Below, piece after piece: positions 4,058 through 11,959 of a DNA stretch of 64,000 nt. Under the pieces are notes generated by a model, which had not been told where the DNA came from, did no database searches, and saw nothing but the letters and a program-made list of their open reading frames with translations. Source of the stretch: Planctomycetaceae bacterium. GTDB taxonomy: Bacteria; Planctomycetota; Phycisphaerae; Phycisphaerales; SM1A02. Each line of letters begins with the position of its first letter. Position 1 is the stretch's first letter. Position numbers and translations under genes: made by a program. Where the stretch lies: NCBI GenBank assembly GCA_947490615.1, contig CANLHK010000006.1, positions 62,001-126,000 of the forward strand, read 5' to 3'.

Positions 4058-4190
4058 GGTTGCATCAGCCGCTTCATTGATCGGACCATACAGGGGGAGG
4101 CTTGATGTTTTCGGCGCCGAAGCGGTTTGGCCGCGTGAGGCACCTCCTCAACCCTTCGTCTGCGGGCGTGAGCGATGGTACAACCACAGC

Positions 4191-5063
4191 ATGTCGACGC
4201 CGCAAGCGCCCTCCGCGCGAGATCTCGCTGAGAAGAGTTACGTGCTCGGAACCCACGATGCAGAGCTTGAGCGGCTTGGATTCCAGCACTCGGTCTGGCG
4301 TGACGAAGTGCTGCAAGCTTGGCGAAACGCAGGCATTCGTGAGGGTGCGCGCGTGATCGATGTTGGCGCGGGGCCTGGCTTCGCGTCACTCGATCTCGCT
4401 GAACTGGTCGGTCCGCGCGGAGCAGTGCTCGCCGTCGAACGCAGTGCGCGCTTTCTCTCGTTTCTCGCGGAGGAAGCACAGCGTCGCGGGCTGCGCAATA
4501 TCTCGTTGGCTGAGCTTGACCTCATGCAATCCGAGATCCCGACCGCACCGACCAACGGGAACGGCATGACCGCGGGGTTTGATGCAGCGTGGTGTCGCTG
4601 AGTTGCCTGCTTTGTGCCTGACCCCCAGTTGCTGGCCAACCGATTCAGCGCCGCGCTTGCCTCTGGAGGTGTGGCGGTCTTTCACGAGTATGTGGAGTAC
4701 GGGTCCTTCCAGTTGCTCCCGCCGAGGTCGGAGATCGGCGAGTTCGTCCAGGCGGTCTTTGAGAGTTGGCGAGCACAAGCCGGCGAACCCGACATTGCGC
4801 GCGTCCTACCCATGTTGCTGGATCATGCGGGTTTTGCCGTGCAATCGGTCCGGCCCATCGCTCGCTGCGCGCGCCGACAGGACCGACTCTGGCATTGGCC
4901 AGCAGGGTTCGTGCGGATCAATGTGCCGCGACTCGTCGAGCTTGGCGTTCGGGACGCGGCTTGGGGCCGTCGAGTGATCTCCGCCATCAATGAAGCGGAA
5001 GCAGATGATCGCTCGATCTTCGTGACGCCGACGGTGCTCGAGATCATCGCTGTGAAGCGATAG
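4191..5063 (+). pseudogene. SAM-dependent methyltransferase interrupted by an in-frame TGA
   Basis: Two open stretches in the same frame, 4191-4601 and 4602-5063, together encode a class I SAM-dependent methyltransferase of about 290 residues. Residues 45-85 hold the Rossmann motif I (VIDVGAGPGFASLDLAE) and the acidic end of strand 2 (VLAVERS). The stop is TGA at 4599-4601, where the protein would read FDAAWCR-stop-VACFVPDP. Relatives have tryptophan at this place (CRWV..F.PDP), so a single TGG-to-TGA change explains the break. The downstream half is intact and well conserved in character. The ATG at 4191 has a TACAAC hexamer 6 bases upstream and no Shine-Dalgarno sequence. It could be a recent nonsense mutation or a sequencing error. 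The natural substrate is unknown. Confidence 0.75.
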
Positions 5064-5076
5064 GTCTTCCAATTGG

Positions 5077-5721
5077 ATGGGTACTTCGCGTATGGTGCGG
5101 ATTCGCACCCCTCACGGACTCCGACCCGTGCCAGCAACAGCCTCGAATCGACCGCTTTCCAATTCCGTTCCTTCCTCTGCCGCAGCTTCGGGCTCGGCGC
5201 CTCACCTTCATGAAGAGCCGATGGACGCTGCGTGCGTCGTACGCGACATGCAGCACGGCGCGGGATTGTTCGCCACGCGCGAACTCGCACGCGGCGCGCG
5301 CATCTTCATCATCGAAGGCACGCTGCAGACTTTCCCGACGCGCTATTCGATTCAACTCGATCATGGCGTCCACATCGAGGCGGACGGCATGACGACCGAC
5401 GCGCAGATGCGCGCGCGTCATCCGTGGCGCTTCCTCAATCATTCCTGCGATCCCAACGCGCGCATCCAAGGGCGCAGCGTGATCGCGCGGCGTCCGATTG
5501 CGGTTGGTGAGCAAATCAACTTCGACTACACGACAACCGAAGCCGACATGGCGGAACCGTTTACCTGCCAGTGTGGCTCGTCGCGCTGCCTCAAGGATGT
5601 CCGCGGCTTTGCGCACCTCTCCTCGGACGAGCAAATGGCTCGTGCCACGCGGCTCGCACCGCACCTGAAGCCCCTGCTCATGACCAAGTCGGATGAGACT
5701 TCGGCCGTGCGCAGCGCGTAG
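5077..5721 (+). CDS. SET-domain protein-lysine methyltransferase
   Basis: The 214-residue protein has a complete SET domain (about 50-195). It shows the opening HGAGLFATREL, the catalytic pseudoknot elements RFLNHSCDPNARI and INFDYTTTE, and a cysteine-bearing post-SET segment CQCGSSRCLKD. SET enzymes transfer methyl groups from SAM to lysine. The first 45 residues are low-complexity (SAAASGSAP) and the start is uncertain: ATGs at 5077, 5092 and 5221 are all in frame, and only the last is close to the domain. It is followed after 18 bases by the Pls/PosA-type synthetase gene and is probably cotranscribed with it, so the synthetase product or its carrier protein is a candidate substrate. Bacterial SET proteins are often assumed to have been acquired from eukaryotes, but base composition here is like the neighbours. 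Confidence 0.85.
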   Translation: MGTSRMVRIRTPHGLRPVPATASNRPLSNSVPSSAAASGSAPHLHEEPMDAACVVRDMQHGAGLFATRELARGARIFIIEGTLQTFPTRYSIQLDHGVHIEADGMTTDAQMRARHPWRFLNHSCDPNARIQGRSVIARRPIAVGEQINFDYTTTEADMAEPFTCQCGSSRCLKDVRGFAHLSSDEQMARATRLAPHLKPLLMTKSDETSAVRSA

Positions 5722-5739
5722 ACGCACGCGCGAGCGGTC

Positions 5740-8700
5740 ATGACCTCTTCCACGACCGCTCCTTCGATCCTTGATCTCTTCGCGCGGAGTTGCGCCGCGA
5801 GTCCTGACGCAGTCGCGTTGGACATCCCACCTTCTGCGCAACGCACGCGCGCGACGGTGACCTACCGCCAGCTGAATCGTCAGGCAGACGCCATCGCGCG
5901 CTTGCTCCTGCGGCACAAGCCGCGCTCCGACACGGTCGTCGCGCTCGCACTCCCACGAACCGATCAAAGGCTCTACGCGGCGATGCTCGGCTCCATGCGC
6001 GCTGGCTGCGCGTACTGCGCGATCGACCCGATCTTTCCCGCGCGGCAAGCGTTGCAGATCGTGCAAGATGCTGGCGCGATCGCGCTCATCGCGGAGCCTG
6101 CTCGTGCGACGGAGATTCTCGGTGCGGCGCCCGCGGTCATGGTCCTCACGCCGACGATGATCGACGCCGCGCAACGACTCGATGCGTGCACCGAGTCGTT
6201 CCCGCTCATCGTTCCTTCGCAACTGGCCTATGTCATCTACACCTCAGGCACGACTGGACAACCCAAGGGCGTTGAGATCGAGCACCAGTCGATTCTGAAT
6301 CTCGTCGCGGGTGACATCGAGGAGTTTGGACTTCGTGAAGGCGATCGTGTCGCGCAAGGATCGTCGGCGAGCTATGACTCAAGCCTCGAAGAAATCTGGC
6401 TCGCGTGGGCGGCGGGCGCTACGGTCGTCGTGCTCGATGATGAGACGGCGCGCCTTGGTCCTGATCTTCTCGGGTGGTTGCAGACCGAGCGCATCACCGT
6501 CCTCTGTCCGCCACCGACCTTGTTGCGCACGCTCGATTGCGACGACCCGCAGGACGCGCTGCCGCTCATTCGGCTCTTGTATGTGGGCGGCGAAGCGTTG
6601 CCGCGCGATCTCGCTGATCTCTGGTCGCGCGGACGAAGACTCGAGAACGGCTACGGTCCGACCGAGTGCACCGTGACCTGCCTGCGCGCAACGGTCAAGG
6701 AAGGTGAAGAGGTCACCATCGGTCGCGCCATCCCTGGAACGACGGCCTTTCTCATCGATCCCGATGATCCCCAACTGCGCGTACTCAGCGCAGAATTCGA
6801 CGGCGAACGACGCGGCGAGCTTGTCATCGGCGGCGCATCGTTGGCGCGCGGCTATCGCGGTCAGCCTGAGACGACGCGTGCGAAGTTTGTCGAGCACGCC
6901 ACGCTCGGGCGCGTCTATCGCACGGGAGACCTCGTCCATCGCGACGAGCACGGCGCGTTTCATTACCACGGTCGCATCGACGCGCAAGTGAAGTTGCGCG
7001 GCTACCGCGTTGAGCTCGGCGCCATCGAAGCGAGACTTGCTGCCCATGAAAGTGTGCTTGAGGCGGCGTGTGCGGTTGATGGCGAGGGCTCACGGCGGCG
7101 GATCGTGGCGCATGTCGTGTTGCGTCCAAACTGCACGCTGGACATCGAAGGACTTCGCGCCTTCGCATCCGAACAGCTGCCCCATTACATGGTCCCCGCT
7201 GCGTTCGCCGCTCTCGACTCGGTGCCGCGCACGCTCGGTGGAAAGGTCGACCGACTTCGACTACCCACAGTCGACGCGCCGCTTGCCGCGCATGGAATCC
7301 CACACGCGCCCGCCGCCTCTGAGATGGAACGACTTGTCGCGCAGGCACTCGCCGACGCGCTCGGTCGCAGTGAGGAGGCCGTGTCGGTGGAAGCCGATCT
7401 CTTTGATGAGCTCGGTCTTGACTCGCTCACGGTCGCGATTGCCATCTCGAGATTGCGCCGCACCCCACTCTCACGAAGCGCGACCGTTCGACTTGCCTAC
7501 CAGCATCGCACCGCGCGGACGATTGCAGCTGCGATTGAGCAGACTGTCGTGCCAAGCGTGAATGTCGCGGCGACCGCACCCACCGATTCTCAAGGCGACT
7601 CGCGACCTCTGCTCGCGACGCTGTTGCAGGCCTCGTTTCTCACGCTGCTTCTCGTCTCGATCTCGCAGTTGCTGTGGCTTCCCGAAGTCGTCACGAACTT
7701 CGCGCAGAGTGAAGCGCCGCTGCACGGCATGCCCATCGTCACGCTGCTGTGGGTTGCTTGCGCTGCGGCGATCGGAGTCGGGACCTATGCCCTCACGACC
7801 CTCGCCATGGCGCTGCTGGCCAAGTGGGTACTCATCGGCCGCTATCGCACGATGCGCGTGCGCGCGTGGAGTCTCTTCCATGTTCGGCACTGGATGGTGA
7901 CGCGCCTCGCGGCATTGGCGCCGTGGGATTTCATCGAGGCGCTTGGGCTTGGTCCTGCGGTCTTGAGTTTGTTCGGCGCGCGCATCGGTCGCCGCGTGCA
8001 CATTCATCGAGGTGTGAGACTCAACGGCGGTGGTTGGGATCTCCTCACCCTTGAAGACGACGCGACGGTTGGGCAAGACGCCTCGCTGCGCACCGTGCAA
8101 CTCGAAGCAGGCTCGCTGGTGTTTGGCACGATCACGGTGCGCCGCGGCGCGACCCTGGAAACGCGCGCGGGCATGTCGCCTGGCGCTGAACTTGGTCACG
8201 GCAGTGTCTTGCGGCCGCTCTCCAATCTGTCGCCTAGCACGATCGTCACCAACACCGTGCTCGACGGCATTCCTGCGCAGCCGATTGGAACAGCGCGTGC
8301 AGTCCCGCTTGTTGCTCAACCCGCGCGAAAGTCACTGCAAGTGCTTGAGGTCATGGCACTCGCGCTCCTACTCCTCGGCGCGTTGCTCGTTCCGTTGCTG
8401 GCGTCGTTCACAATCTTTGGATTGCACCTCGATGGATCGATGTACGGCGTGCTGTTCGCGGGCGATTCGCTGCTGCCAATGCCGATGGGGTTTGCGCGCA
8501 TAGGCGGTGCCGCCGTGTGCGCGAGCGTGCTCACGGTGTTGCTGCAAGCCATGCTGGTCCGCCTGCTCGGACGCGCACCGACGCACTCGTTCTCACTTGG
8601 TTCCTTCACTGCGGCGCGGCTCTCGATGCAATCCGCGCTGGTTGATTCGGCGGGCAAATGGCTTTCGGGCACGCTGCTCTGGCCGATGTGGCTCAACGCG

Positions 8701-9729
8701 GCGGGCGCGCGGATTGGTTCTGGATGCGAGATCTCGACCATCACCGATGTCATCCCCTCAACGGTCGCGCTTGGTGAGGAGACTTTCTTCGCCGACGGCG
8801 TCTACCTCGGCGGGCCACGCCTGCATGCGGGCACCGCGACCGTCGAGCGCGTCAAACTCGGAGCGCGCTGCTTCGTCGGCAATCACGCGGTCCTTCCTGC
8901 TGGAGTTCGACTTCCAGACAACACACTCATCGGCATCTCCACGCGTGGGGATGGACTCTCAGCAGAGTCTGGACTCTCTTGGTTTGGACATCCGCCGTTC
9001 CAACTTCCGCGACGCGAGATCGTCGAGATGGAGCGCGCCTACACCCACGAGCCGTCCTTGATCCGACGCCTCAATCGGTGGAGTTGGGAACTCGCGCGCT
9101 TTGCGCTTCCGCTTGGACCGTTGTTTGTCGGACTGGTGTGGTTCCGCACGATGGAAGTCGCGCAAGCGAACTCCTCGGTCCTGGTGTTTCGCCTCGTGGC
9201 ACTTCCGATTGGCGTCCTCGCGGCGCTCGTCACACTCGCGCTTTCGATCGTGCTCATGAAATGGTTGCTGCTCGGCCGCGTGAAGCCAGGCGTGCACGCG
9301 CTGTGGAGCTGCTGGTGCAGTCGCTGGGATTTCCTCTATGTCGCGTGGGGCATGTGGGCGAGCGTGCCGTTGACATTCCTCGAAGGCACGCTGCTTCTCG
9401 TGGTGTACCTGCGGTGGATGGGTTGCCGCATCGGCGCGCGCGCGCTTCTTGGCAGCGGCTTCTCGCATGTGGTGGACCCCGACATGCTGCACTTTGGTGA
9501 TGATGTCACAGTGGACGCGCTCTTTCAGGCGCACACCTTTGAAGATCGCGTGCTCAAGATCGGCCATGTCACGCTGCGCGATGGCTGCACCATCGGCACC
9601 AACACGGTGTTGCTCTACGGCGCCGACATTGGTGCACAGGCGACCGTACTCCCCCACTCGGTCGTCATGAAGCGCGAGGCGCTGCTGCCGATGTCGCGTT
9701 CTCAAGGCGCGCCGACGCAAAGCGTCTGA
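5740..9729 (+). CDS. Pls/PosA-type membrane non-ribosomal peptide synthetase
   Basis: The 1329-residue, single-module synthetase matches the epsilon-poly-lysine synthetase (Pls) architecture in both order and length. Residues about 1-510 are an adenylation domain with A3 [14 protein letters not shown] (near 165), A5 NGYGPTEC, A7 YRTGDLV and the A10 lysine in GGKVDR. Residues about 530-600 are a carrier domain with the phosphopantetheine serine in GLDSL (S562). From about 625 onwards there are three repeats of membrane helices followed by left-handed hexapeptide-type soluble blocks (about 745-845, 985-1085, 1225-1325). There is no condensation or thioesterase domain. In Pls the C-terminal blocks form isopeptide bonds between amino acids at the membrane. 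The substrate cannot be read from sequence with confidence. The ATG at 5740 has GAGCGG upstream. The 3' end overlaps the convergent copper ATPase gene by 65 bases. Confidence 0.88.
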
Positions 9730-11959
9730 GTCGCAGGCTGTTGAGCACGACACTCACGCTCGACAGCGCCATCGCCGCGCTCGCCACAACGGGCGGAAGC
9801 ATCCAACCTGTCCACGGCCAGAGTGCTCCCGCCGCGAGCGGAATGAGAAGAAGGTTGTAGCCAAACGCCCACGCGAGGTTCTGTCGGATGATGGTGAGCG
9901 TGCGGCGCGAGAGCATGAGCGCGTCGGCGATCGCCCGCAGGTCTTCGGTAAAAAGCAGAATGTCTGCGCTCGATTGCGCTACATCGGTGCCGCGCGACAT
10001 CGCTAGACCAGGCCGCGCCGCCGCGAGCGCGGGCGCGTCGTTGATTCCATCGCCGACAAACGCTGTGTTGCCGTACTCGCGCTGCAAGGACGCAAGCAGC
10101 GTGGCTTTGTCTGCGGGAGTGAGCGCACCGTGTGCCGAGGCGCGATCAATCTGAAGTGCGTCCGCGACAGCGCCGACCGCAGCCGCACCATCACCACTGG
10201 CAATTCGAATCTGAACACCTTGCGCGCGCAGCGCTGCGATCGTCGCGCGCGCTTCTGGTCGCAGGCGATCGCTCAGTTCGATCGATCCGAGCCACACGCC
10301 GTCGGCCGCAACAGTCACCGCCGTCATCGGCGCAGAACCCGCGCCGCCCTTCTCGGCAGCCGCGCGCGCTTCAGGCGGCAAGAACGCCAGCGTGCCAGCC
10401 ACCACAACGACACCATCGACGGTGCCGCGCACGCCACAACCTGGAACCGCCTCAAACTCCGCACACGCGCGCGGCGTCACACCGTGGGCGTTGGCAAACG
10501 CCACGATTCCTGCTGCAATCGGATGCTCACTTGGCGCTTCGACCGACGCCACAAGCGAGAGGAACTGGCTCTCGTGAACTCCAGGCGCGAGGAGCAATCG
10601 CGTGACCGACGGTGTACCCATCGTGAGTGTGCCCGTCTTGTCGAACACGACGCAGCGCGCTTGCGCGAGTAACTCAAACGCGGCGGCGCGGCGAAAGAGC
10701 ACACCCAGTTGCGCGCCGCGACCCGACGCCACGAGAACCGCCACGGGAGTCGCCAGCCCTAACGCGCAGGGACACGCGACGACAAGAACACCAAGGAGCG
10801 CCTGCATCGCTTGCGCGTGATGCTCAGGCGCCGTCGAGAGAAACCACCACGCGCTCCACGCAAGAGCCGCGATCAGCAACACGCCCGGCACGAACACCGC
10901 CGCCACGCGATCGGCAAGCCGTGCCACCGATGCTTTCGTCGCTTGCGCCTCATCCACCATCGCGACCACGCGCGCCAGCACGGTGTCCGCGGACGCGCAG
11001 GACGCTTCGATCTCGAGTGCGCCGACGGTGTTCAGCGATCCCGCCACCACGGCGTCACCGACCACGCGCAGTCGCGGCATCGGCTCACCCGTGAGCATCG
11101 ACTCATCGACTTCGCTGGTTCCTGCGCGCACGATCCCGTCGACGCCGATGCGTTCACCAGGTCGCACGCGCACGCGCATGCCGCGCTCGACGAGTTCGGC
11201 CTCGATCTCGCGCTCGATGCCAGCGCCGTCGAGGATTCGCACGGTTCCCGCGGAAAGCGCGGCCAACGCACGCAACGCTTCACCAGCCCGCGCCGTCGCT
11301 CGCGCTTCGAGCATGCGACCAAGCAGGACGAAGACGATGATGATCGCAGCGGCTTCAAAGGTGAGTGCGTGCGCCGCGCGATCTCCAAGGAGCATCGTCC
11401 ACGCGCTCGTACAGAACGCGACGCCCGTTCCGAGCGTCACCAGCGTGTTCATGTCGCTCGAACGCACGCGCAGCCGTGCGAGCGCCGCGCGATGAATCGG
11501 CCAGCCACACCAGAGAAACACGGGCGTCGCCAAGGCGAACTGCGCCCATCCCGTCCAAGCTCCATCCAACGCGGCGATGGTGCCGTGCGACATCGCGAGC
11601 GTGAGCAGCGGCACGGAGAGGAGTGCACCGAAGATGACGCGAAGTCGAAGCGCTCGTTCATTGCCGCGTTCCGCGGCGGCGCGGGCTGCAGGGTCGCGCG
11701 TGCGATCGAGGTGAAAGCCTGCACGCTCAAGACTGCGCGCCACGCCATTCAGATCCGCTGCAGAAGCGTCCAACTCCAAACGCAACTTCGCAGTCGCAAA
11801 CGACACGCTTGCGCTTCGCACTCCCTGCACACTTTGTGCAGCGCGCTCAACCTTGGCGGCGCACGCTGCGCAGTGCATCCCCTGAATCGAAACCACGCGC
11901 GTCACCGTGGTGCGCGCGGACGGCTCCTGCAATCGGTTCGGCGCAGACGGGTTCGACAT
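9665..11959 (-). CDS. copA: Heavy-metal (probably copper) translocating P-type ATPase
   Basis: The 764-residue P1B-type ATPase has, in order: a metal-binding HMA domain (about 20-85) with [12 protein letters not shown]; membrane helices; the actuator motif TGEP; the transmembrane metal site CPC (in [13 protein letters not shown]); the phosphorylation site DKTGTLT; the nucleotide-binding SEHP motif; and the hinge [14 protein letters not shown] with a CxxC-type HMA domain points to Cu(I) export to the periplasm. Such pumps supply copper enzymes or protect against excess metal. The first HMA cysteine motif is HCAAC, a normal variant. No copper regulator or chaperone gene is adjacent. The last 65 bases overlap the end of the convergent synthetase gene. 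Confidence 0.92.

Follow-up and report, generated by a model that had tools for sequence, protein, structure and literature searches.

A SET-domain methyltransferase gene conserved beside a Pls-like synthetase gene in planctomycetes and other phyla

The gene pair and the architecture of the synthetase

A SET-domain methyltransferase gene lies directly ahead of a Pls-like synthetase gene on the + strand of the window, the 64,000-nucleotide stretch of planctomycete DNA that was analysed. The SET open frame with its ATG spans 5077-5721 (+). Its first 48 residues were unaligned with relatives, the alignment starting at approximately the ATG at 5221, and together with the Pfam PF00856 match this gives a probable gene extent of 5221..5721 (+). 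The protein scored 42.4 bits against PF00856 (cut-off 22.4) and was the single match to this profile in the whole genome at E 0.001. Besides the profile match, the SET-domain hallmarks NH[SAC]C.P, DY and post-SET CxC...C were present. Eighteen bases (5722..5739, +) separate the SET stop codon from the synthetase ATG, which suggests one transcript. The placement of the two genes in the sequence-only reading was therefore correct, with ORFs at 5077-5721 and 5740-9729 (+) and the first matching PF00856.

The synthetase (5740..9729, +; 1329 aa) has an adenylation-thiolation (A-T) portion followed by a terminal polymerase-type domain according to Pfam and TIGR02353. The Pfam domains AMP-binding, AMP-binding_C, PP-binding and Hexapep were identified, which delimit the adenylation domain (5779..7245, +; AMP-binding residues 14-372, AMP-binding_C residues 429-502) and the thiolation (PP-binding) domain (7333..7536, +; residues 532-599), while TIGR02353 matched residues 637-1325. 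An AF2 model of residues 619-1329 (pLDDT 88.8, pTM 0.89) predicted three repeats, each a pair of long helices and then a beta-helix pattern of short strands, with approximate extents of 7606..8298 (residues 623-853), 8329..9009 (residues 864-1090) and 9058..9726 (residues 1107-1329), all on the + strand, the third repeat including the conserved CWCSRWD and QAHTFEDR motifs. A terminal layout of three helix-pair/beta-helix repeats has been described for PosA (PMC10522769). A simple hydropathy scan detected five membrane segments where six are expected, and the matches listed in a Foldseek comparison of the terminal domain with the PDB were all local and to hexapeptide acyltransferases (query TM <=0.16).

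The full layout of an epsilon-poly-lysine synthetase had been proposed from the sequence, and the A-T portion and three terminal repeats agree with this and with the Pls/PosA group in general (epsilon-PL synthetase, PosA, PDAP/PDAB synthetases; TIGR02353). The family score and the pocket do not. At 334.8-337.5 bits the match to TIGR02353 was below the curated cut-off of 423.1, so the enzyme is Pls-like rather than a curated Pls/PosA. Synthetases of 23 related genomes scored 307-359 bits. In 14 genomes of actinobacteria and sphingomonads, members of the synthetase clade reached 358-397 bits and the 27 matches above the cut-off 529-805 bits. The top score of 36 clade members was E 3.3e-119, interpolated to about 400 bits. 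In a FastTree tree, which carried long-branch warnings, the clade was separate from, and sister to, canonical Pls/PosA, and it was present in six phyla-level groups.

Conservation of the pair and loci without SET

In 21 of the 23 related genomes whose synthetase is full-length, the SET gene was directly upstream of it, the full-length profile having 24 rows because one genome contributed two pieces. A search for SET genes beside Pls-like genes across genomes, suggested by the sequence-only reading, found the pair conserved well beyond the planctomycetes. It occurs in other phyla, including named strains of Kutzneria, Lentzea, Kibdelosporangium and Amycolatopsis, and is not a planctomycete speciality. 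Taxon names are those of the record titles, and some MAG labels look wrong.

In the Kutzneria family (200 genomes), the synthetase and the paired SET type were present in an identical set of 12 (Fisher 1.6e-19, with no correction for kinship), in all of which the two were adjacent on the same strand with 3.2-3.3 kb from SET to the terminal segment. The SET type scored 208-229 bits in these genomes and at most 103 bits in 13 more, and the synthetase scored 305-332 bits with a next best of 162. A synthetase was also present in ten of the 11 genomes with the SET type among 392 of the planctomycete phylum, adjacent in nine; genome G152 carries both genes on different contigs. One planctomycete genome (G430) had the SET type with no synthetase, and the open frames around this solitary gene gave no clue. 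In a plasmid collection the SET type was found in four of 72,556 records, the same four in which a match covered 80% or more of the synthetase. On these Streptomyces plasmids the genes are 10.5-13.6 kb apart, and the stretches between them, on the plasmids and in Streptomyces melanogenes, held mostly hypothetical proteins and no pathway. A SulP anion transporter gene follows the SET gene by 34 bases on two of the plasmids, and the plasmid homologues bear NCBI's automatic label 'SET domain-containing protein-lysine N-methyltransferase'.

Of the 40 largest neighbour clusters listed, SET alone was shared between phyla with the same position and strand, and SET distances tracked those of the synthetase (Mantel r 0.94, 31 loci). 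The 15-row SET alignment behind the neighbour, SET-less-genome, canonical-Pls and planctomycete-phylum searches had one out-of-frame row (L087), as had the 37-row alignment used for motif reading (one row); a corrected alignment was used for the BurB profile comparison, the Kutzneria-family search and the Mantel test. Among the titles and abstract starts listed by literature searches, there was no paper on SET paired with nonribosomal or poly-amino-acid synthesis.

No SET gene adjoined the synthetase in 36 of 80 relatives, so the core reaction does not depend on SET. The 80 were the best of 257; some are shared with the 23 related genomes, and they are thus no independent sample and give no estimate for the population. 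Thirty genomes labelled SET-less were searched, of which 17 gave no SET match, 12 gave weak matches only (45-84 bits) and one had the paired SET type elsewhere on the same contig. The SET matches of loci L114 and L127 were partial (45-46 bits). At 17 of the 36 SET-less loci, 20 neighbouring proteins were called with a home-made gene caller, and no substitute methyltransferase was among them; they belonged to diverse families, four of the 20 having none.

Canonical Pls loci served as controls. These were 20 of the 27 over-cut-off TIGR02353 matches, taken from actinobacterial genomes that carry the Pls-like clade, and none had a SET gene in the approximately 4 to 8 kb covered upstream. Their pockets comprised 11 DAESIGTVVK (Lys-like), four DFEY.GTVTK (Dap/Dab-like), one DFECLSVVTK and four that were unreadable. 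An epsilon-poly-lysine product was ruled out for the window because the pocket differs and the Lys-like synthetases have no SET gene.

The adenylation pocket and the relatives of the SET protein

The pocket was read via the GGEALP anchor, with the 235-517 numbering and the GrsA/EntF anchor. It consists of D213, S214, E217, C256, Y281, G283, G304, V312 and T313 (6376..6678, +) and K502 (7243-7245, +), giving the code DSECYGGVTK. The specificity prediction proposed by the sequence-only reading could thereby be made: with D235 and K517, which are of alpha-amino-acid type, and E239, which is cation-binding, this is predicted to be an alpha-amino-acid pocket with a cation-binding glutamate. That reading was to be abandoned if the pair were not conserved in related genomes or the pocket were incompatible with amino acids; a conserved pair and an alpha-amino-acid pocket were found. 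The three residues are common to Pls/PosA. Unlike Pls/PosA, the synthetase has S236, C278, Y299, G322 and a SET partner. Under the same anchor canonical Pls sequences have Ala or Phe at position 236, with which the statement on this position for Lys and PDAP enzymes in PMC10522769 agrees. At position 322 the clade has G in place of the Thr that lies close to the terminal amine in PosA, which would leave space for a bulkier cation.

The code is near-invariant across the clade. It was found in every one of the 32 SET-bearing loci whose pocket could be read and kept in 30 of the 36 SET-less loci among the best 80 of 257 relatives, so that variants were confined to SET-less loci (6/36 versus 0/32; Fisher 0.026, uncorrected). 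The same ten positions, as compared by printed code alone, are those of Bdello_A, an orphan Bdellovibrionales enzyme that had modest activity with L-arginine and none with known diamino substrates, and for which its authors look to a larger analogue suitable for polymerization (PMC10522769). The parts of that paper drawn on here mention no SET partner, whereas SET stands beside the synthetase in the window. Two Bdellovibrionota MAG sequences with DSECYGGVTK form the first branch of the clade, and the Bdellovibrionota loci and genomes (L137, L173) gave no SET match. The substrate of the synthetase may be arginine or a cationic amino acid of similar size.

BurB is a SET-domain methionine S-methyltransferase acting on the sulfur of free methionine (PMC12542666, PMC7496086), and was the top profile match of the SET family among solved SET proteins (71.6 versus 56.4 bits). 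BurB structures (PDB 9l4t, 9l4v) also gave the highest Z when the SET model was compared with solved structures (14.2 and 13.9, then 12.3), although in superposition the histone enzyme ASH1L had an rmsd of 2.0 over 117 residues versus 3.1-3.3 over 125 for BurB. BurB is approximately 30% identical to the SET protein, shares its [ST]xQ and YxxTE motifs and post-SET cysteines and likewise belongs to a thiotemplate pathway, in which its partner adenylation domain, unlike the synthetase, is without D235 and takes a non-amino acid (PMC7496086). Before the conserved SET cysteine BurB has Leu-His and the paired family Asn-His (Asp replaces Asn in two alignment rows); Leu may not be a requirement. The Asn-His pair and post-SET cysteines are likewise seen in histone-lysine methyltransferases. 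As BurB holds Met by main-chain atoms (PMC12542666), sequence could hardly reveal methionine methylation by the SET protein, and the BurB-like fold of the model is no proof of BurB activity.

Candidate roles of the SET enzyme

The SET and synthetase genes are linked by co-occurrence and adjacency. The explanation we favor, tentatively and at somewhat below even likelihood, is a two-enzyme thiotemplate module producing an oligo(amino acid) that is methylated and carries positive charge, in which SET tailors the small molecule of the pathway. The synthetase would activate arginine, or another cationic amino acid of about that size, and load it onto its own carrier domain, the membrane domain would join the units in the manner of Pls and PosA, and the SET enzyme, with SAM, would most likely act on the chain, when loaded or during its growth, or on the chain end. 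Methylation would then be a frequent modification that the product can do without. A point against this explanation is that the side chain of arginine lacks the amine that a Pls-type isopeptide bond needs.

A doubtful alternative is that SET makes the monomer as BurB does, forming S-methylmethionine from methionine or N-epsilon-methyl-lysines from lysine, which the adenylation domain then selects. BurB supplies a cation-selecting adenylation domain (PMC7496086), the DSECYGGVTK enzyme did not accept the known diamino substrates and its authors suggested a larger analogue (PMC10522769), pocket variants are confined to SET-less loci, and the SulP gene on two plasmids is a weak sulfur hint. The identical pocket, however, persists in most SET-less loci, and as the SET-less genomes searched had, with one exception, no SET match or weak ones only, most would need another monomer source. 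The neighbour proteins included no methyltransferase family. The side chains of S-methylmethionine and trimethyl-lysine, moreover, offer no nucleophile from which isopeptide bonds could form. It is unlikely that SET yields S-methylmethionine or N-epsilon-trimethyl-lysine for polymerisation by DSECYGGVTK synthetases, and that members without SET scavenge the monomer or make it in another way; if true, this would be a natural poly-sulfonium or poly-quaternary-ammonium peptide class in at least four phyla.

A protein methyltransferase acting on the synthetase or a protection target is improbable, although the Asn-His pair and the lower ASH1L rmsd leave room for a protein-lysine role, and the post-SET cysteines and the label of the plasmid homologues accord with it. 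Two synthetase histidines were more frequent with SET than without (H458, 82% versus 22%; H1306, 97% versus 61%), and histidine-methylating SET enzymes exist (SETD3). Methylation of the synthetase, as put forward by the sequence-only reading, gained no backing from lysine conservation: no lysine column was conserved with SET (33 rows) yet lost without it (36 rows), and all seven conserved lysines were fully kept in both sets. The nearest solved relative, BurB, also has a free amino acid as substrate. Neutral synteny without function is very improbable: further genes are syntenic within the genus of the window, but SET alone kept position and strand across phyla, it is absent at canonical Pls loci, and co-occurrence without adjacency was seen on the four plasmids and in G152.

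An enzyme with exactly DSECYGGVTK had an unclear substrate in 2023 (PMC10522769), and the SET partner is a genetic clue to its chemistry that narrows the candidate monomers to a short list. As named strains carry the pair, the two-enzyme module is open to testing. If true, it would add a further natural-product SET enzyme after BurB, in a polymer-type pathway, and new methylated polycations may be of interest as antimicrobials and materials. Conservation of the SET-synthetase pair across phyla points to an undescribed methylated cationic amino-acid product.

The SET and synthetase genes in the window

The SET-domain gene (5077-5721, + strand; PF00856 match of 42.4 bits, above the Pfam cut-off) and the synthetase gene (5740-9729, + strand), encoding adenylation, thiolation and TIGR02353-like terminal domains, were separated by 18 bases, as the sequence-only reading had described. 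The SET protein was the only PF00856 match in the window's genome and its alignment with relatives begins at about residue 49, so that ATG 5221 is the likelier start over 5077. The proposed Pls-type layout was retained in the adenylation-thiolation portion and in the terminal domain, whose predicted structure (711 residues, pLDDT 88.8, pTM 0.89) comprised three repeats, each a helix pair plus a beta-helix, which is the layout described for PosA in PMC10522769; the TIGR02353 score of 337.5 bits was below the curated cut-off of 423.1 bits. Carrier domains need a phosphopantetheinyl transferase, and the genome contained one match to that family (PF01648, 36.4 bits).

A class I methyltransferase frame (4179-5060, + strand) is located 5' of the SET gene and contains one in-frame TGA (4599-4601), a nonsense mutation or a sequencing error, where the intact relative in locus L105 encodes Trp. 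Within the window's genus, 11 loci had related frames at the matching place. Convergent with the synthetase is a copper-type P-ATPase gene (9665-11959, - strand), and a minus-strand frame of similar length directly 3' of the synthetase was common to 13 loci of the genus group.

The SET family profile matched BurB, a SET-domain methionine S-methyltransferase, best in the PDB (71.6 bits; next 56.4). BurB also ranked first by Z for the AF2 model of the SET protein (pLDDT 94.9), at 14.2 and 13.9 (125 residues, rmsd 3.1-3.3), followed by ASH1L (Z 12.3; rmsd 2.0 over 117 residues). The paired family differs from BurB in the residue preceding the conserved His, which is Asn or, in a few cases, Asp. 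In a search of 39 SET members at E 0.01, NCBIfam models gave no match. BurB methylates free methionine (PMC12542666), and the thiotemplate line that it supplies includes a cation-selecting adenylation domain (PMC12542666, PMC7496086).

Distribution of the pair

The expected conservation of the pair in related genomes was borne out. The 101 genomes compared were that of the window and 100 relatives; 23 had a full-length terminal-domain match (307-359 bits), and SET was directly upstream on the same strand in 21 of these, counting three loci split by contig ends (G007, G012, G026); the exceptions were G040 and G057. The synthetase of one genome (G008; L081:9068-10456, with L094:5300-6688 from the same genome) was immediately preceded by a tandem of two different SET genes, possibly reflecting two methylation steps.

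A named-genome scan with the terminal segment retained the best 80 of 257 relatives, several of them from the 23 genomes, and their record titles covered Planctomycetota, Actinomycetota, Verrucomicrobiota, Acidobacteriota, Sphingomonadales and Bdellovibrionota. Among these 80, with four labels corrected by hand, an upstream SET gene was present in 33, absent in 36 and unjudgeable in 11 because of a contig end or short frame. SET presence changed 9 times on the synthetase tree versus 26 with shuffled labels and is therefore clustered, yet was gained or lost several times; in the Sphingomonadales clade, SET was missing from all 20 rows that could be judged. When neighbouring frames within about 4 kb were clustered, SET alone among the 40 largest clusters listed recurred across phyla with a constant position and strand; the others were confined to one genus or group each or were mixed in position and strand. 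Two loci titled Limnohabitans sp. (L101) and Candidatus Kuenenia (L103) were placed among window-genus sequences by the tree, and these MAG titles are probably wrong.

Reciprocity was examined in 200 genomes of the Kutzneria sp. 744 family, where the SET profile (threshold 1e-8) split cleanly, matching 12 genomes at 208-229 bits and 13 at 103 bits or less, with no match in the remainder at that threshold. The synthetase profile matched 131 of the 200, with 12 at 305-332 bits and the next best at 162; the lower scores came from other Pls-type genes. The same 12 genomes stood at the top for both profiles (Fisher 1.6e-19, without kinship correction), and in each of them both matches were on the same contig and strand, 3.2-3.3 kb apart, a distance that corresponds to the first ~1,100 residues of the synthetase. 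Loci were also read for seven of these genomes (L113, L117, L119, L122, L123, L125, L144).

Across 392 genomes of the planctomycete phylum, the paired SET type (at least 140 bits; next best 92) occurred in 11, ten of which also had the synthetase, nine by profile search and G267 through a fragment of 159 residues where a contig ends. The genes were adjacent in nine of these ten and on different contigs in G152, while G430 was the single genome with SET and no synthetase. Five had the synthetase but lacked the SET type (G040, G161, G192, and G204 and G255, where it lies at or near a contig end), giving a table of 10, 1, 5 and 376 (Fisher 1.6e-15, without kinship correction). SET and synthetase distances were strongly correlated (Mantel r 0.94 over 31 loci; 0.95 within 13 actinobacteria), as co-inheritance would give.

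A Lentzea SET query against 72,556 plasmid records matched four, all from Streptomyces, and these same four, and no others, contained 80% or more of the synthetase. The two genes were separated by 10.5 kb in one and 13.6 kb in three, and the distance in the Streptomyces melanogenes genome was 13.7 kb. On two Streptomyces linear plasmids, SET was followed after 34 bases by a gene for a SulP anion transporter (L285:23400-25506, 10.5 kb from the synthetase; L286:26104-28213, 13.6 kb).

Canonical Pls genes served as controls in 14 actinobacterial and sphingomonad genomes carrying the window-type synthetase, 11 of which had genes scoring over the TIGR02353 cut-off, giving 27 matches. Of these, 20 loci were taken together with roughly 4 to 8 kb of upstream sequence, and in them the SET profile found nothing better than E 0.46.

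Adenylation pocket and the proposed role of SET

Pocket residues were located from a GGEALP anchor, and the window code was DSECYGGVTK (D213, S214, E217, C256, Y281, G283, G304, V312, T313, K502). The 16 of 20 canonical Pls loci with a readable pocket had different codes, namely DAESIGTVVK (11), DFEY.GTVTK (4) and DFECLSVVTK (1). Four actinobacterial loci (L242, L250, L251, L255) had canonical Pls terminal domains in frames of ~1000-1114 aa with no readable adenylation pocket, perhaps polymerase-type proteins relying on a separate adenylation enzyme. The window code is exactly that of a Bdellovibrionales enzyme for which PMC10522769 describes modest activity with L-arginine, none with known diamino substrates, and a larger analogue as proposed substrate. 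Two Bdellovibrionota sequences sharing the code formed the first branch of the window synthetase's clade. We infer that the window synthetase and the Bdellovibrionales enzyme take the same cationic substrate.

The association of SET with the synthetase, the type of pocket and the arrangement of domains were established by computation; in the proposed mechanism the synthetase would join cationic amino acids and SET would tailor the product. Pocket drift was confined to SET-less loci (6 of 36 versus none of the 32 readable SET-bearing loci, L115 being unreadable), which weakly favors supply of the monomer by SET. However, the other 30 SET-less members kept the pocket unchanged, which argues that the adenylation substrate is independent of SET, and a search of 30 SET-less genomes gave no SET match in 17, weak matches only in 12 and, in one, the paired type at another place on the contig. 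Both observations favor a role for SET in modifying the loaded unit or the chain rather than in supplying the monomer. Lysine methylation of the synthetase, also raised by the sequence-only reading, found no support, as seven conserved lysines were equally kept with and without SET. The histidine column H458 was conserved in 82% of synthetases with SET versus 22% without. Residue 1204 was Gly in 97% of SET-bearing versus 25% of SET-less synthetases (mostly Ala), the only column separating the two at the thresholds applied, and this split may be plain kinship.

The literature searched, mostly at title and abstract level with few subscription journals, yielded no report of a SET gene paired with a poly-amino-acid synthetase. 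The window synthetase group is a sister clade of the Pls/PosA-type synthetases, with SET as its dedicated partner.
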